DNA from: a virus | Length of the DNA stretch: 47,353 bases | Reading direction: 5' to 3' (one strand) | IMG/VR virus record: IMGVR_UViG_3300008115_000008 | Location: 1 to 47,353 of that record | In this document: one piece after another, positions 1 to 47,353 of the stretch | Layout of the letters: each line of letters opens with the position of its first letter | Position numbering within the stretch: the stretch's first letter is position 1 | Program-made: the position numbers and the translations under genes | The notes under the pieces: model-generated | Databases searched by the model: none | What the model was told of the DNA's origin: nothing | What the model saw: the letters and a program-made list of their open reading frames with translations, nothing else

Positions 1-114
1 ATCGTTATGCATCACCCAACAGCCCCATCCCACGCGCGGCGCAGCTTGTCCAGAATCTCCGCATCGTGCGTGCTGATGGGATGGCCCACGCGCTGAGCCA
101 AGTTAAAGGCCACG
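1..114. repeat. Terminal direct repeat, copy 1 (circular closure)
   Basis: Identical to 47240-47353 over 114 bases. It lies inside a cassette gene and ends mid-codon. This is what an assembler leaves at the ends of a circular or circularly permuted molecule. It means the two contig ends should be joined, giving 47,239 unique bases. A physical terminal repeat cannot be excluded from sequence alone, but nothing about its position suggests one. Confidence 0.9.
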
Positions 115-287
115 TTCGCCAACTGCGCGCCAACCAACTGTTTGGCTGCGTGTCGCTTGTCTGCGCCAGCAATCGCCAGCGCTTCCACACGTTGCGCAAA
201 GGCATGCACGGTGCGGCCAGTCGGCGCTCCTTCGGGTGCGCCGCGCGTCACATCGCGCCATTCTTTGGTTGCTGCTTTCCTGTCCAT
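12..287 (-). CDS. Cassette 5 protein, unknown function
   Basis: A 91-residue protein that I do not recognise. The chosen ATG follows a GAAGGGATAAGG ribosome-binding stretch; an upstream ATG (335) would read through the attC core and is less likely. The protein is alpha-helical in character, with basic and alanine-rich stretches and no cysteine pairs or membrane segment. The TGA stop lies one base short of the GCATAAC complement of the core at 4-10, so the gene fills its cassette exactly. It is read in the same direction as the phage early operon. The 3' end is repeated at the far end of the contig because of circular closure. Confidence 0.6.
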   Translation of the reverse strand: MDRKAATKEWRDVTRGAPEGAPTGRTVHAFAQRVEALAIAGADKRHAAKQLVGAQLANVAFNLAQRVGHPISTHDAEILDKLRRAWDGAVG

Positions 288-320
288 CCTTATCCCTTCG
301 TTGTGCGCCACCAGGGCGCT

Positions 321-406
321 GCATAACTGTCGCATCGAGCAGAGCGCGAACAGCTACGCCGCGCTCTGCCACCTTTCACCCGCGCCTGCTCATGCTGGCG
401 TTAGGC
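321..406 (+). other. Integron attC site (86 bp)
   Basis: Inverse core GCATAAC at 321-327 and core GTTAGGC at 400-406 enclose an imperfect inverted repeat: GAGCAG-GCGCG pairs with CGCGC-CTGCTC, leaving one unpaired A in the left arm. The inverse core matches the core at 4-10, the start of the same cassette. The strand given follows the stem asymmetry, as in classical aadA attC sites. It separates the genes ending at 401 and starting at 287. Confidence 0.75.
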
Positions 407-733
407 CCCAGCCTTCATCACCGCGTCCATGTGCTCTCGGGCCAGCGCACGAAGGGCCTCGCGGCGCTCCTTCACGCTCAGAATCTGCTTGATGTCGGTC
501 GCCAGCTCAGCCGCCATGTGGTTCACCATGCGCTCGGCCAGCTCGGCCTCGATGCGCTCCACCACTTGCCGGCGCACCCGGTCGGCGTCCACCAGGCGCC
601 ACATTTCGGCCATCCACTCGGCCGGCACCTTCAGGCGGCTCTCGTAGTTCGGCAGCAACCATTGGCCGCTGCTCACATGGTGCAGCACAGCCTTCTCGGC
701 GGCGGCCTTCACTTGCGCTTCAAAGTCAGTCAT
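401..733 (-). CDS. Cassette 6 protein, unknown function
   Basis: A 110-residue helical protein with no family that I recognise. The start is ATG 733, preceded by AAAGGAAAGACG. Upstream frame extensions read through attC sequence and are unlikely. The C-terminal half is rich in charged helices (repeated E/R/A, with a KERREALRALAREH stretch), which suggests a coiled-coil or helical-bundle protein. No cysteines or membrane segment. The TAA stop overlaps the attC core at 400-406, so the gene spans the whole cassette. It is read with the early operon and follows the DUF551 gene across an attC. Confidence 0.65.
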   Translation of the reverse strand: MTDFEAQVKAAAEKAVLHHVSSGQWLLPNYESRLKVPAEWMAEMWRLVDADRVRRQVVERIEAELAERMVNHMAAELATDIKQILSVKERREALRALAREHMDAVMKAGA

Positions 734-762
734 CGTCTTTCCTTTGCTTCGTTCAACATGGG

Positions 763-889
763 GCCTAACCACTCGTTCAAGCCGACCCGCTACGGCCGGC
801 CAGCTTGCCCGCGCAGCCGCCTTGGTTCATCATCGGCCGCACGGGCAAGCCGTCCGTCCTCCGCGGGCGGCTTAACTCGAACGTTAGGC
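763..889 (+). other. Integron attC site (127 bp)
   Basis: Inverse core GCCTAAC 763-769 and core GTTAGGC 883-889. The arms AAGCCG-A-CCCGC and GCGGG-CGGCTT pair perfectly except for one extrahelical A in the left arm. Spacers CACTCGTT and CTCGAAC sit where AATTCGT and CTCAAGC sit in the aadA1 attC. That match fixes the orientation as plus. The long central part (about 80 bases) has further self-complementary pieces. The TAA stop of the leftward DUF551 gene is inside the core. Confidence 0.85.
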
Positions 890-1237
890 GCTCAGTGGCG
901 GCACAGGCAGCCAATGCGTCGGGTTCGGCCCGAGCGGGTTGCTGTCGGCCGTTGTCGCATCGTCGTAAACCCATCCGCTCCACTCTTCGCCGTCAAGGTA
1001 GCTGGCAGCCACCCACGGCGTATAGCCCGGCGTGGTGTCGTTCACCAGAACCATCGTGCCGTCGTGTGGCGCAGTGGCTATCGGCAACCACGCGCCTAAC
1101 CCCTCGCTGAACGCCGCGGCGACGCAGCCCTCGGTCGCGCAGTAGACCGGCTGCGAGCCGAGCAGTCCCGGTCCGATGACGAGCGAGCCGAGGAAGGTGT
1201 CTGCGCCGCAGTGGGCGCACTTGCCGACGGGGCGCAT
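884..1237 (-). CDS. Zinc-ribbon/DUF551 fusion protein (cassette 7)
   Basis: 117 residues. The N-terminal 37 or so residues carry CxxC (CAHC) and CxxxxC (CATEGC) pairs, as in a small zinc ribbon. The rest matches DUF551: WLPIATAPHDGT near the middle, a Trp-rich centre and HWLPVPP at the end. DUF551 proteins are small, common in phages, and of unknown role. The start ATG overlaps the upstream gene's TGA by one base (TGATG); the stop TAA lies in an attC core. The joint between the two domains is the in-frame sequence GTTAGGC (encoding LG in EGLGAW), i.e. the complement of the attC inverse core 1094-1100. The gene therefore appears to be a chimera of an operon-side zinc ribbon and a cassette-borne DUF551. 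Confidence 0.75.
   Translation of the reverse strand: MRPVGKCAHCGADTFLGSLVIGPGLLGSQPVYCATEGCVAAAFSEGLGAWLPIATAPHDGTMVLVNDTTPGYTPWVAASYLDGEEWSGWVYDDATTADSNPLGPNPTHWLPVPPLSA
1094..1118 (+). other. Half attC site inside a coding region
   Basis: GCCTAAC followed by CCCTCGCTGAACGCCG is the left half of an attC (inverse core, spacer, start of the left arm). It matches the left half of the site at 45263 almost base for base. No matching right half with a GTTRRRY core is visible in the next 150 bases. The inverse core complements the core at 883-889, so it is the end of cassette 7. Confidence 0.6.
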
Positions 1238-13397: not shown

Positions 13398-14060
13398 ATG
13401 ACCAGCAAACGCAGCGGCGCCAGCGCTGCGGGTGTGGTAGGGCGCCCGATGCCCCTTTCCGCTCTGGCCGACGAGCTCTTCGACCTGACCTTCGCGCCGG
13501 CGCCCGAGCTGCTCGCCTGGGTGCGCGCGACGTTCATCCGCCCGGCCGGCCCGCTGGCGAACCCGGACCACGCGCACCTGCAGGATGCCGCGCTGGGCTT
13601 CCTGTGGGCATCGTCGGGCTACGTCAGCAAAGGCCGCCGGGTCGTCGGCACGGCCGAAGACACCGTCATGGCCGGCATGGGCAGCCCGTGGAAGCGCGCC
13701 CGCGCCGAGCAGCAGCTGCGCGAGTGGTTCGGCGCCGTGCCGCGCTTCGTGATCACGGTCGACGCCTTCTACTGGCGCGAGGCCGACGACGCCGCGGCCT
13801 GCGCGCTGGTCGAGCACGAGCTATATCACCTGGCGCACAAGACCGACGAGTTCGGCGCGCCCGCCTTCACGAAGGACGGCCAGCCCAAGCTCGGCATCGT
13901 CGGCCACGACGTCGAGGAGTTCGTCGGCGTGGTGCGCCGCTACGGCCCGGGCGACCCCGACGGCAGCGTCGCGCGCCTGGTGATCGCGGCCGCCGCCGGG
14001 CCGCGCGTGGAAGAGGCGCAGATCCGCCACGCCTGCGGGGTGTGCGCGGCGAAGGTGTGA
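13398..14060 (+). CDS. Putative phage metallopeptidase
   Basis: 220 residues. Zinc-binding HExxH motif H140-E141-L-Y-H144 in CALVEHELYHLAH, and a later histidine/glutamate pair in VGHDVEEFVGVVRRYG that suits a third ligand. This order fits the 'phage metallopeptidase' family encoded next to terminase genes; the substrate is not known. The first 20 residues are disordered, and the C-terminus ends with a CGVC pair. Upstream ATGs in the frame run through the preceding membrane gene, so ATG 13398 was chosen. Confidence 0.8.
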   Translation: MTSKRSGASAAGVVGRPMPLSALADELFDLTFAPAPELLAWVRATFIRPAGPLANPDHAHLQDAALGFLWASSGYVSKGRRVVGTAEDTVMAGMGSPWKRARAEQQLREWFGAVPRFVITVDAFYWREADDAAACALVEHELYHLAHKTDEFGAPAFTKDGQPKLGIVGHDVEEFVGVVRRYGPGDPDGSVARLVIAAAAGPRVEEAQIRHACGVCAAKV

Positions 14061-14571: not shown

Positions 14572-16105
14572 GCTGCTGCGCCGGCGACGCGGGCGCGCAT
14601 CGCTGGCCGGCTACGCGAACGCGATCGAGATCCCTGGCAAGCCCGCCAGCGACGACCCGGACGAGTGGCTCTTCAAGCCCGTAGAGTCGGGCGTGGCCGC
14701 GCACCACCTGCTGGTGCTGCAGGCGATCGAGCGCGCCGCTGCTACGCGCTACGGCCGCTTCATGATCTTCATGCCGCCAGGATCGGCGAAGTCGACCTAT
14801 GCCAGCGTCGTCGCGCCGACCTACCTCATGGGCAAGCAGCCCGGAACGAAGATCATCCTCGCCAGCTACGGCAGCGACCTGGCGCGCAAGCACGGCCGCC
14901 GCGCCCGGCAGATCGTGCGGTCGCCGCAGTTCGCCAGCCTCTTCGGGTGCACGATCTCGAAGGACAGCAGCGCGGCGAACGAATGGGCGCTCACGAACGG
15001 CTCGGAGTACCTCGCCGCGGGCCTGCTGGCCGGCCTGACCGGCAACCGGGCGCACGGCGCGCTGGTCGACGACCCCATCAAGGGCCGCGAGCAGGCCGAC
15101 AGCCCGACGATCCGCGAGAAGACCTGGGAAGCCTACGTCGACGACCTGCAGACTCGCCTGATACCGGGCGGGTGGCTGGGGCTGGTGCAAACCCGCTGGC
15201 ACGAAAACGACCCAGCCGGGCGGCTGCTGCCGCAGGGTTACGCCGGCGAGTCGGGTCTGATCAAGTGCACCGATGGGCGGGTGTGGGAGATCATCAACCT
15301 GCCGGCCGAGTGCGAGCGCGCCGACGACCCGCTGGGCCGGCCGATCGGCGGCATGCTGTGGCCGGAGTGGTTCGACGCCTCGCACTGGGCGCCCTTCCGC
15401 CTGCAGTCGCGCACCTGGGCGTCGCTCTTCCAGCAGCGGCCACGCCCCGACGAGGGCGGAATCTTCAAAGAGGCCTGGTGCCGCGAGCGGTGGCGCCAGA
15501 TCCCGCGGCAGGCGAATGTCATCGTGCACAGCTGGGACACAGCGCAGAAGCCCGAGGAGATCAACGACCCGACGGTGGGCACCGTGTGGCAGTTCGGCCA
15601 GGACGTGCCCGGCTATCACTTGCGGGAAGTCTGCCGCGAGCGCATGGACTACCCTACGCTGAAGCGGAAGGTGAAGGCCTACGCCGAGCGCGACAGGCCG
15701 GCCGCCATCCTGATCGAGGACAAGAGCAGCGGGCAATCGCTGATCCAAGACCTGCGCAGCGAGACGAGCCTGCCGATCATCGCGATCGAGCCGCTGCGCG
15801 ACAAGGTGTTCCGGGCGAACGAGGTGTCTGCGATGGTCGAGGCCGGGCTGCTGCTGCTGCCGGAGTCGGCGCCCTGGCTGGTGGACTTCGAGGGCGAGTT
15901 CTTCGGCTTCCCGCTCTCGACGCACGACGACCAGGTGGACAGCGTCACGCAGTTCCTCAAGTGGGTGCGCACGTGGGCCAGCCGCATAGAATCGGCCGGC
16001 GCTGGCGTGCTTCGCCCGATGGCCGAGCAGGCGATGCGCGAGAACCGCGGCGCCAGCAGCCTCGGCATCGGAAGCGCCGGCGAGAACATGGACGGCTTCG
16101 CATGA
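14531..16105 (+). CDS. terL: Terminase large subunit
   Basis: 524 residues. ATPase part: Walker A MPPGSAKST (about 81-89) and Walker B GALVDD (about 176-181). Nuclease part: HSWDTAQKP (first acidic residue, about 331), AILIEDKSSGQ, and the closing STHDDQVDSVTQFL. The motor pumps DNA into the prohead and cuts it. Full family length. The C-terminal 45 residues after the nuclease are disordered and probably bind the portal. ATG 14531 is the first plausible start. Confidence 0.93.
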   Translation: MPTSSALQQAAARELLRRRRGRASLAGYANAIEIPGKPASDDPDEWLFKPVESGVAAHHLLVLQAIERAAATRYGRFMIFMPPGSAKSTYASVVAPTYLMGKQPGTKIILASYGSDLARKHGRRARQIVRSPQFASLFGCTISKDSSAANEWALTNGSEYLAAGLLAGLTGNRAHGALVDDPIKGREQADSPTIREKTWEAYVDDLQTRLIPGGWLGLVQTRWHENDPAGRLLPQGYAGESGLIKCTDGRVWEIINLPAECERADDPLGRPIGGMLWPEWFDASHWAPFRLQSRTWASLFQQRPRPDEGGIFKEAWCRERWRQIPRQANVIVHSWDTAQKPEEINDPTVGTVWQFGQDVPGYHLREVCRERMDYPTLKRKVKAYAERDRPAAILIEDKSSGQSLIQDLRSETSLPIIAIEPLRDKVFRANEVSAMVEAGLLLLPESAPWLVDFEGEFFGFPLSTHDDQVDSVTQFLKWVRTWASRIESAGAGVLRPMAEQAMRENRGASSLGIGSAGENMDGFA

Positions 16106-16115
16106 AGCGGGGGTG

Positions 16116-17714
16116 ATGATGGCGACCGAACCGATGATTCCCGAGCCGATCGACCCGCCGGTCGAAGCAGACCTGCGCGAGATCGCGCGCGCCGAGGATC
16201 CAGCCTCGCCGCTCTCGCTTGAGAGCCTGCGCGCCGTCTCGCCCTACGTCACCCTGCTGTCGGCCACCGACTCCGTGCTGCAGCAGAAGGGCGGCATCGG
16301 GAACCTGTCTGTCTACTCCGAGCTGCTGCGCGACGATCAGGTGTCGACGTGCTGGGCGCAGCGGCGCCTTGCGCTCACCAGCTGCGACACCGTGGTCGAG
16401 CCCGGCTCCGACGATGCCGCCAGCCAGGCCGCGGCCGAGGCCCTGCAGGCCGAGCTCGACGGCATGAATTGGGACGACGTCACCGACAAGGCCCTCTTCG
16501 CCGCGTTCTACGGCTGGGGCGTGGCCGAGGTGCTGTGGAAGCCGGCCACCGCCGGCAGCCTGACGCCGAGCGTCAGCTTCGACCGCGTGGTAGTGCGCGA
16601 CCGCGCGCGCTTTCGCTTCGACCGCGACGGGAACGCCTACCTCTTCGCCAGCGGCAGCGGCTGGCGCCAGGTGCCGCCGCGCAAGTTCTGGTCGGTGAAG
16701 TTCGGCGGCGACCATCACGACCAGCCCTACGGCCTGGGACTGGCGCACGCGCTCTACTGGCCGAGCTTCTTCAAGCGCAACGACATCAAGTTCTGGCTGA
16801 TCTTCCTGGAGAAGTTTGGCCAGCCCACGGCGATCGCGAAGCTCACTAAGGCGCAGCTCGAGGACGAGACGCAGCGAAAGAACGCGCTGGCCGCGCTGCG
16901 CCTGATCGCCACCGACGCCGGCGTCGTGGTGCCCACGAACGACCAGGGCGAGAGCCTGATCGAGCTGCTAGAAGCCGCCCGCAGCGGGGCCGCCGACTAC
17001 GAGGCGATGAAGCGGGCGATGGACGAGGCCATCGCGAAGGTGATCCTCGGGCAGACGATGACGACCGAGAACGGCAGCAGCCGGGCTCAGGCCGAGGTGC
17101 ACCTGAGCGTGCGCCAGGACATTGTCGAGGCCGACGCCGACCTGCTGTGCGGCAGCTTCAACCATGGGCCGGTGAAGTGGTGGTGCGAGTGGAACTTCCC
17201 TGGCGCGACGCCGCCGCGGGTGTATCGGCAGACCGAGGTGCCGGAAGACCTGGCGCAGCGTGCCGACCGCGACACGAAGATCCACGCGCTCGGCTTCGAC
17301 CCTGACGAGGACTACATCCTCAAGACCTACGGCCCGGGGTGGAAGAAGCGCGACAACCCGCTGCAGTCTATCGTCGCCGCGATGGGCGGCGGGCCTTCCG
17401 AGCCGCCGCCCGAGTTTGCCGAGGGCGAGCCCGTGGCTCTGGCAGCCCTGCGCGCCGCGCGCCGCGCCGATCAACGCGCGCTGTACGAGGCCGCCCGCAT
17501 GTTCGCCCGCGATGCGCAGTCGATCACCGGCAAGCGCGTCGAGCAGCTGCTGCAGGCCGCGGAGTTCGCCGAGGATCCCGAGGTGTTCACGCGCGGCCTC
17601 GACGAGCTGCTGGCCGAGAAGCCGCCCGAGGGCACGATGCAGAAGCTGACGCGGGCCATCGTCACCTCGCGCCTGCTGGCCGCCTGGCGGAATCAGCGGC
17701 GCCGGCCGGCGTGA
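16116..17714 (+). CDS. Portal protein (DUF935, Mu gp29-like)
   Basis: About 532 residues. DUF935 pattern: YSELLRDDQVSTCWAQRRLA, KALFAAFYGWGVAEVLWKP, FGGDHHDQPYGLGLAHALYW, KFWLIFLEKFGQPTAIAK, KVILGQTMTTENGSSRAQAE and VHLSVRQDIVEADADLL. Portals form the dodecameric DNA gate of the head. GTG 16113, ATG 16116 and ATG 16119 follow an AGCGGGGG ribosome site; any could be used. The next gene overlaps by four bases. Confidence 0.92.
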   Translation: MMATEPMIPEPIDPPVEADLREIARAEDPASPLSLESLRAVSPYVTLLSATDSVLQQKGGIGNLSVYSELLRDDQVSTCWAQRRLALTSCDTVVEPGSDDAASQAAAEALQAELDGMNWDDVTDKALFAAFYGWGVAEVLWKPATAGSLTPSVSFDRVVVRDRARFRFDRDGNAYLFASGSGWRQVPPRKFWSVKFGGDHHDQPYGLGLAHALYWPSFFKRNDIKFWLIFLEKFGQPTAIAKLTKAQLEDETQRKNALAALRLIATDAGVVVPTNDQGESLIELLEAARSGAADYEAMKRAMDEAIAKVILGQTMTTENGSSRAQAEVHLSVRQDIVEADADLLCGSFNHGPVKWWCEWNFPGATPPRVYRQTEVPEDLAQRADRDTKIHALGFDPDEDYILKTYGPGWKKRDNPLQSIVAAMGGGPSEPPPEFAEGEPVALAALRAARRADQRALYEAARMFARDAQSITGKRVEQLLQAAEFAEDPEVFTRGLDELLAEKPPEGTMQKLTRAIVTSRLLAAWRNQRRRPA

Positions 17715-39657: not shown

Positions 39658-39875
39658 ACGAGCCGGTCGTGCTGCTTCGGCACTGCGTCGGCGTAGACGG
39701 GCAGCCGTACTGCGCGCGCGGCCTGCGCGAGTTCATGCGACGGCACGGCATGGACGTGCGCGTTCTGGCCCGCCAGGGATACCCGGCGAGCGTGATCGAG
39801 GCGACAGGCGATGCGATGGCGCAGCGCGCGGCGGGCAACGCGCGCGCGGAGCACGAGACAGCGAGGGCCGAATGA
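39654..39875 (+). CDS. Small tail-region protein, unknown
   Basis: 73 residues from GTG 39654 (GTGA overlap). Contains HCVGVDGQPYCARGLREFMR and a helical end. It is regularly found between the preceding small tail protein and the tail-tip hub; the function is not known. The ATGA overlap with the next gene couples translation. Confidence 0.7.
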   Translation: MNEPVVLLRHCVGVDGQPYCARGLREFMRRHGMDVRVLARQGYPASVIEATGDAMAQRAAGNARAEHETARAE

Positions 39876-42800
39876 GCGGGGGCAGCAAGACGCAGACCGT
39901 AGGGTGGCGCTACTACATGGGGCTCCACATGGGGCTGTGCCACGGGCCTGTCGATGCCATCACCGAGATCCGGGTCGGCGACCGCACGGCATGGACAGGG
40001 GAGCAGACGGCTTCCGGCGCGATCGCCATCGATGCGCCAGACCTGTTCGGCGGCGAGGAGCGCGAGGGCGGCGTGCAGGGAACGCTCGACGTGATGATGG
40101 GCGAGCCGTCACAGGCGCCGAACAGCTATCTGGTGTCGAAGCTCGGCGCGCTCGTGCCGGCGTTCCGCGGCCTACTGAGCACCGTCTTCAGGCAGGGTTA
40201 CGTGGGCGCCAACAACCCTTACGTCAAGCCATGGGCGTTCAAGACGAGGCGCATCCTGCAGGGGTGGCATGGAGGATCGGCGTGGTATCCGGCAAAGGCG
40301 GCGATCGTGCTGGCGGCTCAGTCCTCGAGCGTGCAAAGCCAGGCCGCCTTCGCCATCTTCGCTGGCGCAGACGAGAACAACGCGTTCCCGTACCTGTACA
40401 CCATGCCCAGCTACCAGCCAACTGCGGCCACGGTGACAGAAGACGTCGCGTCGTTCGCGCCCTACGGCGTCGACGGCAACAACAGGGCCGCCATCCTTGA
40501 TTCGTCGCCAAGCTTCGACTTCGCGCAGGGCGAGGACTTCGCGATCGAGTTCGAGGTGAACGCCGCTGGCAGTAACGGCGGAATTGGATCTCAGCCCGCG
40601 AACTTTCTCTTCTGCCGAACGGAGGTCAACTCCACGACGGGAACCGGCAACTACACGATGCTTCGGAAGTGGTCGTTCTCGGAAAACAGCAGCATCGTCA
40701 GCTTCTCTGCGCCGGATATTGCCGGCTTGGTCAGTTGTCCCGCAACGTTCGGGGCGTGGACAAGCTACCGCGTCGAGCGCAACGGGACCACGCTGCGCAT
40801 GTACAAGAACGGAGCGCTCGTAGGATCCAACACCTGCACGGCTGGCGCGATTTCTGGACCGTGCCGTATCGGCATCAATGGCCCCTATCAGTATGGCGTC
40901 GGAGACATCCCGAACACTTGGGGTGGGAACGTCGGAGTCACGAGTTACCGCAATCTGCGCATCTTCAAGGGCTCGATCACGCCGCCGATCATCGGCATGA
41001 ACCCTGCGCATATCGTCTACCAGTGCCTGACCGATCCAGAGTGGGGCATGGGCTACAGCGCGAGCATCATCGACGATGTGAGCTTCAGGGCCGCGGCGGA
41101 TACCTTCTTTGACGAGGGTATGGGGCTGTGCCTGCATTGGGCGAGGCAGGAGCAGATCGAGGCGTTCCTGCAGGTGGTTCTCGACCACGCCGGCGCGCAG
41201 CTGGTGCAGGACAGGCGCACCGGCCTGTTCAAGCTCACGCCGATCCGCGCGAACTACAGCCTCGCATCGCTGCCGGTGTACGACGAAAGCTCCGTTCGGT
41301 CTGTCGATACCTACCAGCGCCCGGGGCTTGCCGGCGCCGTCAATGCGATCACCGTCAAATTCAACGACGTGGCGACAGGCCGCCGCGGCAGCGTGACGGT
41401 GCACAACCTGGCCAACATCGCCGCCCAGGAGGAGACAGCCGCGCAGGCCAAGGCTTACCCCGGCCTGCCGACGGCCGCGCTGGCGCTGCGGGTGGCCATG
41501 CGGGATCTGCAGGCGGCTTCCACGCCGCTGGCGAAGGTTCGGATGCGCGTCAATCGCACGGCCTACGCTGCGCTGCCCGGAGACGTGATTCGCCTGACTT
41601 GGCCGAAGCTCGGGATCGCCGATCTGGTGCTTCGGGTGCTCCGCGTGGACATCGGGCAGCTGACGGACGGCCTGATCGAGATCGAGGCAGGCGAGGACGT
41701 GTTCGGGCTGCCGGCCGCCACCTACGGGGCTCAACAGCCTTCCGGCTGGGTTCCGCCGAACCAGACGCCGCGGCCGATGGCGGCGCGTCTGGCGCGTGAG
41801 GCCACGTACTACGAGGTTCAGCGCGGCCTGTCGCCAGCCGACCTGGCCGCGTTGCCTTCCGATGCCGGCTACGTCGTCGCCGCCGGCGTTCGGGGCGGGC
41901 CGGACGCGATCGACTACAGCATGAGGACGAGGACCGGCAGCGGCGCTTTCTCCGAGGCCGCGCGCGGCGCTTTCGTGCCCTCGGGGCTTCTTTCTGCGGC
42001 GCTCACGCCAGGCGCAGCGGCCGCCACGCTGACGGGCGTCGTGGACGGCGATCTCATCGCTGCAGGCGCCTACGCGCAGATCGGCCCCGAGATCGTGCGC
42101 GTGGACTCGTTCGATGCTGGCACAGGCGCAATCGCGTTCGGCAGGGGGGTCATGGGCACGGTGGCCAGGCAGCACGCCAGCGGCACGCGGGCGTTCTTCT
42201 TGGGCGACTTGATCGCTGACGACGAGACGCAGCGGCTCGACGGCGAGGCGGTCGACGTCAAGCTGCTTACGCGCACAAGCCTGGGCGAGCTCGCCGAGGG
42301 CAGCGCGCCAACCGATTCCGTTGTCATCGATTCGCTCGCCGCCAGGCCATATCCGCCGGGCCGCGTTCGCATCAACGGGGCCGCCTACCCGGCCACGGCG
42401 CTTGCACCGATCACGATCGCGTGGTCGCATCGGAACCGGCTGCAGCAGAATCTTGAGGGCGACGAGAGCGGGAACATCGGGCCGGAGCCTGGCGTGACCT
42501 ACGCCGTCGAGCTGCGCAAGGCGGACACGGGCGACCTGCTGGACCGCACGGAAGGCATTGCAGGGACCAGCTATTCGGTGCCGGCGGTGGCCGGCAACTT
42601 CCCGCTGCGCGTGCAGCTGTGGGCCATGCGGTCGGATCCAGACGCCCTGGCGCTGCGGAGTGCATTCGAGGTGACGCGCGCCCTGCCCAGCCTTGGATCT
42701 TCGTCGGTGATCTGGCGATTCTTGATCCCTGCCGGCGGGCATGTTGAAGTCCAGCGGTTCTACACGACGACGGCGGGCATCTATCACCAAGTGCGGCGCT

Positions 42801-44227
42801 ATTCCTCGCAGGGCGTGCTCGAGGACACGGCCTACGCATTCATGGTGAGCGGGGCCGCGCTGGACTCGTCGAACAGCCGCCTGGCCGTCGGCATCTACAG
42901 CCTGCCTGCGAGCCTGCAGCAGACCGCGTCGAAGGTCAGGGTGTACGACCTCACGGCGGCCGGGCTATCGACCAGCGTCGACATCACGCCCGACTTCCCG
43001 CCGCCATCGGGCACAGAGATCATCGGCGTCGCGGCGGCCGCCGGCAGCATCTATGCGGTGAACTACGACGGCACCCGCCTCATCCGGTACAACGCGGCAG
43101 GCGCGGAGCAGGCGCGCGTCGACGCGACGCTCTTCCGGCAGTTCGACTGCGATGGCACAGAGCTGATCTTCCCGGCCGCCAGCGGCTTTCAGAGCCGCAA
43201 CCCGCTGACACTGGCCGCGATCTCGACCGTGAACTTCGCGCCAGGCGCGACCAGGACAGGGCAACTGCGTCTGGTAGGCGGAGAGGTCGTGTTCATCGGA
43301 AATCCTCAGTCTGGCGGCAACAGCACGCTGTACCGCTACAGCATGGCCGGCGCGCGCATTGCCAGCTACTCAGCAGTCCCGTTCTCTGGTAGCGGCGCGG
43401 GCTGCGATCTGCAGGCCTTCGGCCCCTACCTGTCGGCCGGCGACAGCGGCACGCCGGCAGTGTTCGACCGGCTGGGCGGTTGGGCCTCTGTGCCGACGGC
43501 AGGCGCCGCCGCGGCCATGGAGAGCGCGCAGCGGCACGATTTCACCACGCAGCACCTCGGCATCTCGGTGATGACGGCCGCCGCGTCTCTGGCCGCCGGC
43601 GCCGCGGGCGGCGATGTGATAAGTTTCGTCGGAGCGGGGGTGCCTAATGATAATGTTAACGCGCCTACGATTGTACCAGCGCATAATGCGGGGGATATAA
43701 TTGTTGCGGTTGATAGACAAGGAAGTGGACAACTACCTCCGCTACGATCGGGCTATACAAATTTATGTACTGTCCCTTCGGGGACCGGCTTTATTCTAAA
43801 TTACCGAATATCGGCGATTGTTGATACAAATAATAGTATTAGCAGTATTTCAGGGACTGGCATATCTCCGCCTTTAGTCTGTGTGTATCGTGGGGCACAA
43901 GTAGCCCCGGGGGCGTCTGGACAAGGGCCAGAAGACGTAGCGGGGAATAACCCGCGTAACTGGCCGAATCTAGCTGCATTTGTCGGTAGTGGATCATGGG
44001 TTGTTGGTATTTTGGCGTCAAACTCTGGGGATCCGGTTGTTTTATCACCTAGTGACACACCTGGTATGGTGCAGCGAACTATTAGCCCCATTACTTGGGG
44101 CGGCGGGAGTTTTGCATTTTTTGATTCAAACGGAGTCCTAAGCAGTTTTGCGGGATATACATGGAATGCAAACCAACCTAGCTTTGTCACAAACAGTTCA
44201 GCCGCTGCCGAGTTGAGAAGGATATAA
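39872..44227 (+). CDS. Tail-tip/host-specificity protein (J-like) with inserted and exchanged domains
   Basis: 1451 residues. Tail-hub pieces: GWRYYMGLHMGLCHGPVDAI and ALVPAFRGLLSTVFRQGY at the start; MNPAHIVYQCLTDPEWGMGY (about 373) and LASLPVYDESSVRSVDTYQR later. Between about 147 and 372 lies a lectin-like insert (DFAQGEDFAIEFEVNAAGSN, TSYRVERNGTTLRMYKNGAL). About 940-1236 looks propeller-like (VYDLTAAG, AVNYDGTRLIRYN, LYRYSMAGARI). The final 205 residues (from 43610) are encoded by AT-rich DNA with different codon use and end SSAAAELRRI; this is probably the receptor-binding part. Full-length and intact. Confidence 0.88.
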   Translation: MSGGSKTQTVGWRYYMGLHMGLCHGPVDAITEIRVGDRTAWTGEQTASGAIAIDAPDLFGGEEREGGVQGTLDVMMGEPSQAPNSYLVSKLGALVPAFRGLLSTVFRQGYVGANNPYVKPWAFKTRRILQGWHGGSAWYPAKAAIVLAAQSSSVQSQAAFAIFAGADENNAFPYLYTMPSYQPTAATVTEDVASFAPYGVDGNNRAAILDSSPSFDFAQGEDFAIEFEVNAAGSNGGIGSQPANFLFCRTEVNSTTGTGNYTMLRKWSFSENSSIVSFSAPDIAGLVSCPATFGAWTSYRVERNGTTLRMYKNGALVGSNTCTAGAISGPCRIGINGPYQYGVGDIPNTWGGNVGVTSYRNLRIFKGSITPPIIGMNPAHIVYQCLTDPEWGMGYSASIIDDVSFRAAADTFFDEGMGLCLHWARQEQIEAFLQVVLDHAGAQLVQDRRTGLFKLTPIRANYSLASLPVYDESSVRSVDTYQRPGLAGAVNAITVKFNDVATGRRGSVTVHNLANIAAQEETAAQAKAYPGLPTAALALRVAMRDLQAASTPLAKVRMRVNRTAYAALPGDVIRLTWPKLGIADLVLRVLRVDIGQLTDGLIEIEAGEDVFGLPAATYGAQQPSGWVPPNQTPRPMAARLAREATYYEVQRGLSPADLAALPSDAGYVVAAGVRGGPDAIDYSMRTRTGSGAFSEAARGAFVPSGLLSAALTPGAAAATLTGVVDGDLIAAGAYAQIGPEIVRVDSFDAGTGAIAFGRGVMGTVARQHASGTRAFFLGDLIADDETQRLDGEAVDVKLLTRTSLGELAEGSAPTDSVVIDSLAARPYPPGRVRINGAAYPATALAPITIAWSHRNRLQQNLEGDESGNIGPEPGVTYAVELRKADTGDLLDRTEGIAGTSYSVPAVAGNFPLRVQLWAMRSDPDALALRSAFEVTRALPSLGSSSVIWRFLIPAGGHVEVQRFYTTTAGIYHQVRRYSSQGVLEDTAYAFMVSGAALDSSNSRLAVGIYSLPASLQQTASKVRVYDLTAAGLSTSVDITPDFPPPSGTEIIGVAAAAGSIYAVNYDGTRLIRYNAAGAEQARVDATLFRQFDCDGTELIFPAASGFQSRNPLTLAAISTVNFAPGATRTGQLRLVGGEVVFIGNPQSGGNSTLYRYSMAGARIASYSAVPFSGSGAGCDLQAFGPYLSAGDSGTPAVFDRLGGWASVPTAGAAAAMESAQRHDFTTQHLGISVMTAAASLAAGAAGGDVISFVGAGVPNDNVNAPTIVPAHNAGDIIVAVDRQGSGQLPPLRSGYTNLCTVPSGTGFILNYRISAIVDTNNSISSISGTGISPPLVCVYRGAQVAPGASGQGPEDVAGNNPRNWPNLAAFVGSGSWVVGILASNSGDPVVLSPSDTPGMVQRTISPITWGGGSFAFFDSNGVLSSFAGYTWNANQPSFVTNSSAAAELRRI

Positions 44228-44230
44228 AGC

Positions 44231-44551
44231 ATGGCAAATCGCTTTGCTAATGGCGCTAAAGCGTTAGGGTTTTGCGACGTTTGTGCGTTCCGTTGCAACC
44301 TGAAGAAGCTGAAGAACCTTACCGTCAAGACAAAGCAGACACAGATTCGCGCGTGCCCGCAGTGCTGGGTGCCCGATCAGCCGCAACCGCAACTCGGCAT
44401 GTATCCCGTCGCGGATCCTCAAGCGATTCGCGACCCGCGCCCTGATACGAACACATGGGTTGCTTCCGGTACGGGCGTTCCCGGGTTCCCCGGCGAAGGC
44501 AGTCGTGTTACTCAGCGGGGCTGGGCTCCCGTAGGCGGCCCGAGCAGCTAA
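44231..44551 (+). CDS. Zinc-ribbon protein at the end of the tail operon
   Basis: 106 residues with two cysteine pairs: CDVCAF (with a further RC) near the start and ACPQCWVPD in the middle, the outline of a zinc ribbon. Flanking residues are basic (LKKLKNLTVKTKQTQIR). The end is glycine/proline-rich. It occurs just after the tail-tip gene in some siphophages; role unknown. The first 60 bases share the lower GC of the preceding tip. Confidence 0.75.
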   Translation: MANRFANGAKALGFCDVCAFRCNLKKLKNLTVKTKQTQIRACPQCWVPDQPQPQLGMYPVADPQAIRDPRPDTNTWVASGTGVPGFPGEGSRVTQRGWAPVGGPSS

Positions 44552-44628
44552 AGATCGCCAGGCTGCGCGAGCGCGACCTGGCCGCGCGCTTGTTCGCAAC
44601 CTCAACCCCGCGAGCGAGTGCCCGTCGT

Positions 44629-44713: not shown

Positions 44714-45052
44714 CTAGGCCATATCCCGCTCTTCGGCGCGCTGGGCGTAGCTCGGCCGCTTGGCCACGCGGTCCGCCACGGCCTGACCGATTGCGACGCC
44801 GCCCAACAGACCGACGCGCTCTCCGTCGATGACGACAGCATGCTGGTCGCATCGCGCCTTGGCGGGCACGTACAGCTCGACAACGACGCGCTGCCAAAGC
44901 TGACCAGGAGCGGGATCGGCTGGGATCGGCGGCAGCGTGGCTGCCATGGCTTCGCGGCGCGCGTCCATCAACGCGCGGCGTCGCCGACGAGCAGCTGGCG
45001 TGTTGCAATGTGCCCAGCGGTTGGGCTTTTGGTTGCGGCGATGACTTTTCAT
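44714..45052 (-). CDS. Last gene of the leftward operon, unknown
   Basis: 112 residues from ATG 45052 (GTG 45058 possible). Basic start (KSHRRNQKPNRWAH, AARRRRRALMDARR), then a beta-rich part (PAPGQLWQRVVVELYVPAKA, QHAVVIDGERVGLLGGVAI). I recognise no family, but the composition fits a DNA-associated phage protein. It lies immediately beyond the cassette array, 18 bases from the first cassette boundary, so the array was probably inserted right before it. It is followed by a terminator. Confidence 0.65.
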   Translation of the reverse strand: MKSHRRNQKPNRWAHCNTPAARRRRRALMDARREAMAATLPPIPADPAPGQLWQRVVVELYVPAKARCDQHAVVIDGERVGLLGGVAIGQAVADRVAKRPSYAQRAEERDMA

Positions 45053-45069
45053 AGTCACGGTATCTACTA

Positions 45070-45076
45070 GTTAGGC
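45070..45076 (+). other. Outer core site bounding the cassette array
   Basis: G^TTAGGC: the left end of cassette 1. The bases to the left (TATCTACTAG) are not attC-like and no attI or integrase is near, so 45070/45071 is the joint between phage DNA and array. It complements the inverse core at 45263-45269 of the same cassette. Confidence 0.65.
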
Positions 45077-45316
45077 GCTTCGTTCGTACACCACCAAGTC
45101 CACGCGCTGCGTCTCGGTTTTGTACGTGAGGCCGCAGCACTCCACCGAGTCCAGCTCGCCGCCGTTGTAGTAAAGGTGCAGCGTCTTGCCGCACCGAATG
45201 CACGGCGTTCGTCCGCAAGAAAAGCCCTCCACGCGGGCAATCTCGCGGTCTTCGTCGCCAGCGCCTAACCCCTCGCTCAACGCGGACCCATCGGGGCCGG
45301 CTACATCGTCTTGCAT
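45071..45316 (-). CDS. Cassette 1 protein, small zinc ribbon
   Basis: 81 residues. Cysteines in FSCGRTPCIRCGKTLHL and VECCGLTY form a probable zinc-binding knuckle pair. Start ATG 45316 with RBS CACAGGAGTAGACG lies inside the attC, so the first 17 residues (MQDDVAGPDGSALSEGL) are encoded by attC sequence and its inverse core. The TAA stop lies in the outer core 45070-45076. The residues after the boundary could be the original protein. Function unknown. Confidence 0.65.
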   Translation of the reverse strand: MQDDVAGPDGSALSEGLGAGDEDREIARVEGFSCGRTPCIRCGKTLHLYYNGGELDSVECCGLTYKTETQRVDLVVYERSA

Positions 45317-45365
45317 CGTCTACTCCTGTGCGGCCCCGCTGGGCCGGTTAGCTCGAACGTTAGGC
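45263..45365 (+). other. Integron attC site (103 bp)
   Basis: Inverse core GCCTAAC 45263-45269, spacer CCCTCGCT, arm AAC-g-CGG-a-CCC; right arm GGG-CCG-GTT, spacer CTCGAAC, core GTTAGGC 45359-45365. Two unpaired bases fall in the left arm only, as in classical sites. The centre holds a ribosome-binding site and start codon for the leftward gene of cassette 1. Confidence 0.82.
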
Positions 45366-45665
45366 CTCGGAACACAGGCGGCGGGCCTCTGCCAGTGTGA
45401 TGTTGGCGTCTGCGCCGTACACCACGCAGCGCTCGGGGTCGTCATCCCAGCCGCGCAACCGGATCGCGTTGTTGTCGGGCATCGCCGTCACTTCCGGGTT
45501 GTCTTCCCACCGCTCAATCTCGCCCTGAGCCTCTAGCGCATCTTCTTCGCTGTCGGCTAGTACGTAGGCCTCGCGCACCACGCGCACTACCCAGAGCCGA
45601 GGCCTAACACTCCGCTCAACTTGACCCGCCACGGCGCCGTGGCTCTCCTGCGTTTCCGTGCTCAT
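45360..45665 (-). CDS. Cassette 2 protein, unknown function
   Basis: 101 residues. ATG 45665 follows AGGAGGAACG, a near-perfect RBS, but both lie within the attC, so residues 1-20 (MSTETQESHGAVAGQVERSV) come from attC. The body is a small alpha/beta sequence: LWVVRVVREAYVLADSEEDA, LEAQGEIERWEDNPEVTAMP, then ITLAEARRLCSEA. It resembles small stress or accessory proteins common in cassettes; no family assigned. The TAA stop is inside the core at 45359-45365. Confidence 0.65.
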   Translation of the reverse strand: MSTETQESHGAVAGQVERSVRPRLWVVRVVREAYVLADSEEDALEAQGEIERWEDNPEVTAMPDNNAIRLRGWDDDPERCVVYGADANITLAEARRLCSEA

Positions 45666-45716
45666 CGTTCCTCCTGTTGCGCCCGCGTGGCAGGCAAGTT
45701 AGCTCGGGCGTTAGAT
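45602..45716 (+). other. Integron attC site (115 bp)
   Basis: Inverse core GCCTAAC 45602-45608, spacer ACTCCGCT, left arm AACTTG-a-CC; right arm GG-CAAGTT, spacer AGCTCGGGC, core GTTAGAT 45710-45716. The loop region holds the start of the cassette 2 gene on the minus strand. The differing cores at the two ends (GGC against GAT) show that it joins two different cassettes. Confidence 0.82.
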
Positions 45717-46754
45717 GGCAAGCGCTGCCTGCGCAGTGCGTGCCTGCTGTAGTGGCGCGTACTCGGTATTGAGTTCGCACCCGATCCATTGCCGGCCCAG
45801 CGCCTGCGCCACCTGGGCCGTTGTCCCGCTGCCCATGAACGGGTCAAGCACCAAGTCTCCCGGCCTGCTGCCTGCCAAGATGCAGGGCTCAATCAGCGCG
45901 GCCGGAAACACCGCGAAGTGCGCCCCGGCGTAGGGCTGGGTGGCCACCGTCCACACGCTGCGGCGGTTGCGGCGGCCGGTGTCGTATTCGCTCTCGTCAC
46001 GGTCAGCGCGGTGCGTGCCCACGGTCTGCCCGGGTATCACCTCCGCGCGCTTGCTGTCGTCGCGCTTGAAACTGTCGCGCTTGCTGCGCTGCCGCTGCGC
46101 GTAGGCCACCAGCCCGGCCTTGGTGCGGTGCTTCTCGTCGCCGCTGTCCTCGTATTTGGCGGTGTGCTTGTGGCTCACGTTGCCGGGCAGTGCGCCGGTA
46201 GCGTCCTCCTTCATGGCTTCCGCGTCCCAGTAGTACCGTTCGCTCTTGGTCAGCAAAAAGAGGTACTCGTGCGCCTTGGTGCAGCGGTCGGTCACGCTCT
46301 CAGGCATCGGGTTCGGCTTGTGCCATATCACGTCCTGGCGCAAATACCAGCCGGCTTCTTGCAGCGCAAACGCCACCCGCCACGGTGCGCCTACCAAGTC
46401 CTTCGGCTTCAGGCCTGTTTCCTTCTTGCCGCGCCCAATGCCGGTGTTGCCGTGCAGCGCCTGCACATGCTTGCCGCCGCTGCTGCCGCCCCACTTGGCA
46501 TCGTTGGCGTAGCTGTCGCCCAGGTTCAGCCACAGCACGCCATCGTCGGCTAGCAGTTCGCGCACGCCCTCGAACACTTCAACCAGCGCGGCCACGTACT
46601 CGGCCGGCGTCTTCTCCAGGCCAATCTGCCCGGGGTGGCCGTAGTCGCGCAGCCCAAAGTAAGGCGGGCTTGTCACGCAGCACTGCACGCGCACACCTTG
46701 CGCCTTCAGGTCGCGCATCGTGTCGCGGCAGTCTCCGAAATACACGCGGTTCAT
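45711..46754 (-). CDS. DNA methyltransferase (beta class, N4C/N6A)
   Basis: 347 residues. Catalytic motif IV TSPPYFGL at about 28-35 precedes the AdoMet motif I DPFMGSGTT (about 304-312). That order is the beta class. SPPY is common in both N4-cytosine and N6-adenine enzymes. Also WLNLGDSYAND, RVAFALQEAGWYLRQDVIWH and KPNPMPESVTDRCTKAHEYL, all typical. It would methylate a short DNA target, for instance to protect phage DNA from restriction; no partner endonuclease is present. ATG 46754 follows GAAGGAACCT; ATG 46781 overlaps the attC core. The TAA stop is in the core at 45710-45716. Confidence 0.92.
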   Translation of the reverse strand: MNRVYFGDCRDTMRDLKAQGVRVQCCVTSPPYFGLRDYGHPGQIGLEKTPAEYVAALVEVFEGVRELLADDGVLWLNLGDSYANDAKWGGSSGGKHVQALHGNTGIGRGKKETGLKPKDLVGAPWRVAFALQEAGWYLRQDVIWHKPNPMPESVTDRCTKAHEYLFLLTKSERYYWDAEAMKEDATGALPGNVSHKHTAKYEDSGDEKHRTKAGLVAYAQRQRSKRDSFKRDDSKRAEVIPGQTVGTHRADRDESEYDTGRRNRRSVWTVATQPYAGAHFAVFPAALIEPCILAGSRPGDLVLDPFMGSGTTAQVAQALGRQWIGCELNTEYAPLQQARTAQAALAI

Positions 46755-46779
46755 AGGTTCCTTCGCTCCGGCACCAGCC

Positions 46780-46872
46780 ATCTAACTACTCGCTCAACCG
46801 GACCCACGCCGGCACTGTCATCAGTCATCGGTGTTCCTCGCGGGCGTGGCCCGGTTAGCTCGAACGTTGTGC
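46780..46872 (+). other. Integron attC site (93 bp)
   Basis: Inverse core ATCTAAC 46780-46786, spacer TACTCGCT, left arm AACCGG-a-CCCACGCC; right arm GGCGTGGC-CCGGTT, spacer AGCTCGAAC, core GTTGTGC 46866-46872. The inverse core complements the core 45710-45716 at the other end of cassette 3. The core deviates by one base from GTTRRRY, matched in its partner at 47191, which suggests a cassette-specific variant. Confidence 0.82.
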
Positions 46873-46873
46873 T

Positions 46874-47152
46874 TCACGCTGCGCGCGGGGCGTCTTGCAC
46901 TCGGAGTTTCGCGGCGTACCGGCGAATGCTCTCGCCGCTCACGATCATCTCGCGCGTGGGTCCGCCGTTCACGTCGCGCACCATCACCGTCGCAGGCTGG
47001 CCGCCTATGATGTGGTACTCGTTGCTCGCGTAGTCGCTCCAATCGGCCCACTGCTCGGCCGCGTGCTGTGGGCCGTCAGCCGTGAAGCGGCGGCCGTCCA
47101 CGATCGTCTGCCCGTTCGCGGGCTCCCACACCACATAGGTTCGTCCGGCCAT
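46874..47152 (-). CDS. Cassette 4 protein, unknown function
   Basis: 92 residues from ATG 47152, preceded by AGTGGAGTGCCGAC. A strand-rich sequence with tryptophans: AGRTYVVWEPANGQTIVDGR, FTADGPQHAAEQWADWSDYA, then EYHIIGGQPATVMVRDVNGG and a helical end. It resembles small single-domain cassette proteins of unknown role. GTG 47194 is possible but would start in attC. Stop TGA one base before the core. Confidence 0.62.
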   Translation of the reverse strand: MAGRTYVVWEPANGQTIVDGRRFTADGPQHAAEQWADWSDYASNEYHIIGGQPATVMVRDVNGGPTREMIVSGESIRRYAAKLRVQDAPRAA

Positions 47153-47190
47153 GTCGGCACTCCACTGTCTGCGCGCTTCGGATGGGTGAA

Positions 47191-47249
47191 GCACAACCCC
47201 TCATTCCAGCCGACCCGCCACGGCGGGCGGCTGAATTCGATCGTTATGC
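47191..47249 (+). other. Integron attC site (59 bp)
   Basis: The most classical member: inverse core GCACAAC 47191-47197, left arm CAGCCG-a-CCCGCC, short loop, right arm GGCGGG-CGGCTG, spacer AATTCGATC, core GTTATGC 47243-47249. Its size equals the original '59-base element'. The core is repeated at 4-10 due to the circular overlap. Confidence 0.88.
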
Positions 47250-47353
47250 ATCACCCAACAGCCCCATCCCACGCGCGGCGCAGCTTGTCCAGAATCTCCG
47301 CATCGTGCGTGCTGATGGGATGGCCCACGCGCTGAGCCAAGTTAAAGGCCACG
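47240..47353. repeat. Terminal direct repeat, copy 2
   Basis: Exact copy of 1-114. It repeats the end of the cassette 5 gene and the right core of the 59-base attC. The window should be read as a circle joined at 47239/1. Confidence 0.9.

Follow-up and report, generated by a model that had tools for sequence, protein, structure and literature searches.

The window, by which we mean the whole stretch of 47,353 nucleotides that was analysed, is IMG/VR record IMGVR_UViG_3300008115_000008. Its opening 114 bases recur unchanged at its end, so the genome is a circle of 47,239 bp. PHROGs matches were obtained to a terminase, portal, head protease, major head protein, major tail protein, tape measure and tail protein, and by this gene content the window phage is a tailed phage; no known phages close to it in DNA were found. 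As the first-pass annotation of this DNA had proposed, an integron cassette array lies within the early operon, which runs leftward, with tail genes on one side and an SSB/exonuclease/RecT-like module on the other. Seven cassettes are divided by six complete attC sites plus half of a seventh, as follows.

44714..45052, minus strand: small boundary gene, 112 aa, conserved, marking the left-hand limit of the array in relatives that lack IntI
45053..45076, plus strand: putative attI-like array boundary, 17 nt from the small-gene start codon to the core GTTAGGC (45070-45076)
45071..45359, minus strand: cassette 1, gene 45071-45316, 81 aa, start codon within the attC
45263..45365, plus strand: attC 1, by structural finder, fold and covariance model
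45360..45710, minus strand: cassette 2, gene 45360-45665, 101 aa, start codon within the attC; complementary cores
45602..45716, plus strand: attC 2, by structural finder and fold
45711..46866, minus strand: cassette 3, DNA methyltransferase gene 45711-46754, 347 aa, PF01555 at E 7e-51
46751..46828, minus strand: possible 25-aa leader ORF, from the attC 3 loop to the ATGA at the methyltransferase start, as judged from the sequence
46780..46872, plus strand: attC 3, by structural finder, fold and covariance model
46867..47239, continuing to window position 4, minus strand: cassette 4, gene 46874-47152, 92 aa
47191..47249, plus strand: attC 4, crossing the joint of the circle, covariance E 8e-11
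5..400, minus strand: cassette 5, gene 12-287, 91 aa
321..406, plus strand: attC 5, by structural finder and covariance model, weak fold
401..883, minus strand: cassette 6, gene 401-733, 110 aa; 402 bp recur at 93.3% identity in contig G016
763..889, plus strand: attC 6, long Rubrivivax-like form, by finder, fold and covariance model
884..1237, minus strand: cassette 7, common to the sister contig G001, gene fused across its half attC, 117 aa
1094..1120, plus strand: half attC (R'' and L'' arm only) at the right end of the array, by sequence and covariance E 0.45

Seven small genes had been described here. Seven cassettes there are; the gene at 45711-46754, a methyltransferase of 347 aa, is not small, and the seventh cassette ends in half an attC. 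The gene of this last cassette (884-1237) reads through the half site, whose arm encodes the linker FSEGLGA of a fusion protein.

A structural attC finder reported exactly six full sites, at the positions proposed earlier, all with the top strand as plus and each scoring at least 31, and no site scoring at least 30 was found in 12 dinucleotide shuffles of the genome; a single spurious reverse call was nested within site 46780. All six sites carry the R''/L''/L'/R' arms and the extra base giving polarity. A covariance model trained on the arms of 23 bacterial attCs only, the check that had been recommended, recovered every site but 45602, at E 8e-11 to 0.04, with two of these five matched by one arm only; in the rest of the genome nothing fell below E=0.45, and E<0.05 was restricted to the array. 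The bottom-strand fold was clearly better than that of shuffles at 45263 (z -3.4) and 763 (z -8.1), moderately so at three sites (z -2.1 to -2.6) and no better at attC 5 (site 321; z -1.0). Rfam at the gathering threshold gave no match. The suggestion that the repeats might be fixed and non-mobile in all relatives is opposed by 12 loci carrying relatives (32-60%) of the early protein 2192-2710, none with an attC scoring at least 31, loci that may nevertheless miss the homologous place.

Searches of the window phage proteins for a tyrosine recombinase, a resolvase or an rve-type transposase found none, and profile searches with PF00589 and TIGR02249 gave 0 matches, in agreement with the earlier statement that no integrase is present. 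The protein 13398-14060 is labelled as a transposase in PHROGs; it is a phage metallopeptidase in Pfam and hence no recombinase, and the PHROGs label looks wrong. With at least two attCs and no intI, the array of the window phage is of the CALIN kind.

Integron cassettes enter arrays as circles, and the arms of one arrayed attC derive from different cassettes, so that the first core of a cassette and its own R'' should be complementary. This complementarity, claimed earlier for the window, was exact in all cassettes scored, namely 5/5 in the window (those flanked by two complete sites), 8/8 in the sister contig G001 and 13/13 in phage G012, or 26/26 in total, and the cores of the window's two end cassettes, read from the sequence, are exact complements as well. 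Matching arms within one attC were found in only 1/26 cases (1/5, 0/8 and 0/13, respectively). All seven intI-adjacent cassettes of the relative G008 likewise have complementary ends, and core variants are many. Cassette ends thus bear the signature of a circular intermediate.

Comparison between phages indicates that the arrays turn over. The sister IMG/VR contig G001 is 99.75% identical to the window over 13.2 kb on the left flank and 99.86% over 9.7 kb on the right; between cores 45070 and 883 no cassette is common to both, G001 having nine attCs within 5 kb between matching cores, and the identity ends at the boundary 45053-45076. The cassettes of relatives therefore do differ at cores, as anticipated, and by this comparison the window array is turning over despite the lack of a recombinase in the phage. 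A second place at which the two genomes differ is 43568-44613, in the last part of the tail protein gene (39872-44227) and just beyond it, which is possibly a host-range module. Sharing was also seen between otherwise unrelated genomes. Contig G016 encodes a terminase, a portal and a head protein of its own, and its DNA resembles that of the window phage in array pieces only; in it, window cassette 6 (402 bp, 93.3%) adjoins a G001 cassette (381 bp, 99.2%), and the edges of both are cores. At finer scale, contigs L391 and L392 are identical for 1.1 kb up to an attI core and again over the following 580 bp, except that at attI L392 has 523 bp more, a single cassette with its cut at G|TT; judged by its ends, this cassette was gained or lost by way of the canonical cut. 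Beyond the next core the two sequences diverge again. A 77-bp difference between L220 and L497 beside the boundary gene was rejected as a cassette change, since it reads as the loss of sequence between two GGC repeats within a single cassette.

Exchange of this kind might also come about through homologous recombination of one phage with another, in which attC arms serve as short conserved joints and no integrase takes part. The phage does encode RecT-like, exonuclease and SSB proteins, the arms offer short homology, and the replacement of the whole array in G001 could be one crossover pair. We consider this explanation unlikely, because the exact complementarity of cassette ends points to circles, breakpoints fall on the 7-bp core, the single-cassette difference between L391 and L392 shows the canonical G|TT cut at attI, and relatives have intact, conserved IntI genes.

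A scan of viral contigs yielded about 45 IntI-bearing loci. The relative G008 (54.9 kb, tape measure 59% identical) carries IntI beside its array (TIGR02249, 413 bits), G024 and G022 likewise have it next to theirs, and the IntIs of all three are intact, each scoring above 400 bits against a cut-off of 265; intI, on which the definition of a complete integron turns, is thus present in these three and absent from the window phage. The tyrosine-recombinase residues are conserved in the IntI alignment. In a tree of viral IntIs (fetched using viral queries), 30 Burkholderiales IntIs and IntI1, built by a quick search with no bootstrap, 28 viral IntIs, some of them duplicates, formed one clade (SH-aLRT 99). 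A search of 399 Burkholderiales genomes for the phage IntI at E<=1e-120, run without a positive control, gave none. Beside the intI start lies a conserved block, the phage attI, reading GGTGTTACGCCGC...GGTCGAATT...GTTRGGC; its core and the R'' of the first cassette match, the sequence beyond varies between phages, and the block resembles attI1 of a P1 record. With an intact IntI, this attI and an array, such relatives possess complete integrons. Directly downstream of intI, G008 (47644-48928) and G024 (16071-17364) encode a second tyrosine recombinase, probably a prophage integrase.

IntI-less phages have a different array start. Homologues of the 112-aa boundary protein were found at ten viral loci, including G012 (55%) and G013 (53%); the protein had no Pfam match and no fold match, and its modest structure model no PDB match, and it could be a recombination or regulatory factor. 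The 17-nt spacing from its start codon to the core, together with several invariant bases, is kept in nine phages (the window phage, G012, G013 and six others). The boundary 45053-45076 is not similar to the attI of IntI-bearing phages, and is read here as a putative attI-like landing site. At L297 (2641-5104), on a contig of an Aquincola MAG, the boundary gene occurs with a tRNA-Cys and an ORF that by eye looks recombinase-like. This is a likely prophage end and suggests Burkholderiales as the host group, though the contig may have been binned in error.

Most of the contigs are metagenomic, and repeated attC arms can mislead assemblers into joining arrays of different phages or hosts. Such an artefact is extremely improbable here: the window genome is circular, unique genes separate the cassettes, the architecture recurs in many contigs and at the prophage-like end beside a tRNA in the MAG, and the polarity rule described below cannot arise from mis-assembly.

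Among the cargo, the methyltransferase of cassette 3 has a 75% identical counterpart in a G012 cassette and the protein of cassette 5 an 85% identical one in cassettes of other viral contigs, and a two-gene cassette is repeated in G008, L392 and the array edge of L297. The cargo families are PF01555, PF00145 and PF14354, including DNA methyltransferases and a Lar-like anti-restriction protein. Cassettes are likely to hold phage accessory genes, with counter-defence as the benefit. A rule that cassette genes always start within the attC was tried and fails, the start codon lying there in 39 of the 145 viral cassettes having a located start; an attC-encoded SEGLG peptide stands near the N terminus of 16 viral cassette proteins.

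A bacterial cassette gene is usually sense to the top strand of its attC, an orientation that is customary, not strictly defining. All seven cassette genes of the window are antisense to their attC, a feature missed by the first-pass annotation. Viral loci were fetched by a gene-blind attC pattern and bacterial loci by nearly the same pattern. All 54 viral contigs with callable cassettes were mostly antisense, and all 49 bacterial contigs, a sample of loci with one attC type and mostly Rubrivivax, were mostly sense under a mixed codon model, with other training sets in agreement. Per cassette, 176 viral ones were antisense only and 0 sense only, against 14 and 166 of the bacterial ones. Orientation by ORF length (viral 83 antisense, 42 sense) proved noisy, and codon-model gene calls were used instead. 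As polarity controls, a class 1 integron and a Shewanella phage were both sense. Phage TJE1, taken from Qi et al. 2023 (PMC9892861) and tested here, has sense genes as well, so the inversion marks the group of the window phage, not all phages.

The pool of cassette proteins also appears distinct: of 315 proteins from viral cassettes, 151 had a match on a further viral contig, counting duplicates, and 0 matched any of 212 sampled bacterial cassette proteins. These two results bear on whether the array is a chance-captured piece of a host chromosomal integron, that is, a passenger CALIN with bacterial cassettes. Its attC type does match Burkholderiales chromosomal arrays, mostly those of Rubrivivax, and attC 6 has the Burkholderiales long form; against this stand the opposite gene polarity, the absence of any match between the 315 and the 212 proteins, arrays that differ between near-identical phages and a fixed array place in several phages, and we hold such a capture to be very unlikely. 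For the first two of these reasons, the earlier proposal of a phage carrying bacterial cassettes from host to host is left unsupported.

Several known systems invite comparison. The chromosomal integrons of Rubrivivax and other Burkholderiales resemble the phage arrays in attC type, in having IntI and in the cassette circle signature; they differ in sense genes, in a separate IntI clade and, within our sample, in having no cassette proteins in common with the phages. The phage IntI is about 56% identical to the IntI1 of the P1 record, and the phage attI recalls attI1 as noted, so the likeness extends to class 1 integrons, from which the phage system differs in cassette genes that run toward intI, not away from it, and in phage cargo. 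Phage Rctr41k (KX853513) has an IntI relative (47%) and attC-like sites, with the difference that its array is downstream of intI, its genes are sense and its IntI falls outside the 28-member clade; the region concerned (L489, 4680-8813), annotated as XerD-like, represents a different phage integron layout.

Arrays of this sort had been called a feature of chromosomes, plasmids and transposons in the first-pass annotation, a view that is incomplete, as phage arrays have already been reported. According to the available text of Qi et al. 2023 (PMC9892861), CALINs occur in virulent and temperate phages and single phage attCs are active with IntI1. Those phage CALINs, as far as that text describes them, are like the window array in being attC arrays without an integrase and in methyltransferase cargo; a phage IntI clade, a phage attI, inverted polarity and strain-level turnover are not described in it. 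The same text presents prophage integrons of Vibrio and Shewanella, which have IntI inside the phage record as do our relatives, as pieces of host chromosomal integrons (PMC9892861), and the Shewanella prophage cassettes are sense, unlike those of the window phage group. No description of the phage IntI clade or of inverted cassettes was found in the literature searched, a search whose scope excluded preprints and most subscription papers.

The window phage shares inverted cassettes, array position and cassette pool with the phage integron family and has no IntI of its own. At the level of sequence, attC structure, core complementarity, turnover, sharing across phages, the IntI and attI of relatives and the inverted polarity are established. 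We regard it as highly probable that the locus is the mobile cassette array of an IntI-less member of a phage-borne integron family, whose inverted cassettes would be moved in trans. Cassettes would be excised and enter as circles, with recombination at the G|TT within attC cores and also, in the case of relatives, at the attI beside the phage IntI; in the window phage and its closest relatives the array would start at the fixed attI-like spot by the conserved small gene. IntI, supplied in trans, would cut the folded bottom strand of attC, and circles would land at the landing site or at another attC. Since cassette genes are inverted, they would be read in line with the leftward early operon upon entry and be expressed from it. 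The shuffling of accessory genes, given the methyltransferases and Lar-like protein in the cargo, would probably alter which host defences the phage escapes.

Most likely IntI comes either from another phage that bears it, whether co-infecting or resident, or from a Burkholderiales host's chromosomal integron. The earlier proposal had hosts' integrases supplying the recombination; a host enzyme is not required, given that relatives have an IntI and an attI of their own. A narrower alternative is that host chromosomal IntI alone drives turnover in IntI-less phages, the phage IntIs being uninvolved. IntI is carried by 50/81 Rubrivivax-related genomes, and IntI1 acts on attCs of other phages in the available text of Qi et al. 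2023 (PMC9892861); the cassette pool, which looks separate from the bacterial one, would be unexpected if chromosomal IntI mixed both freely, and we rate this alternative as possible and rather doubtful.

Returning to a phage-borne integron family, the IntI and attI of relatives and the inverted cassettes make it seem that these phages run their own gene-swapping system and gene pool. In its wider form, which we consider probable, Burkholderiales phages would have an IntI/attI lineage of their own and a mirror-image cassette pool, apart from the bacterial one, through which anti-defence genes are swapped across unrelated and even IntI-less phages. Integrons are regarded as bacterial devices occasionally picked up by phages. 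The sequences studied here point to a phage integron lineage that has an integrase of its own and cassettes of reversed design, and to unrelated phages exchanging cassettes on the time scale over which strains stay nearly identical. Such a system would offer phages a site-specific means of renewing their accessory genes, those against restriction among them. What part gene orientation relative to attC plays becomes directly testable, and a pool of short phage accessory genes, recognisable by their attC sites, is opened up.
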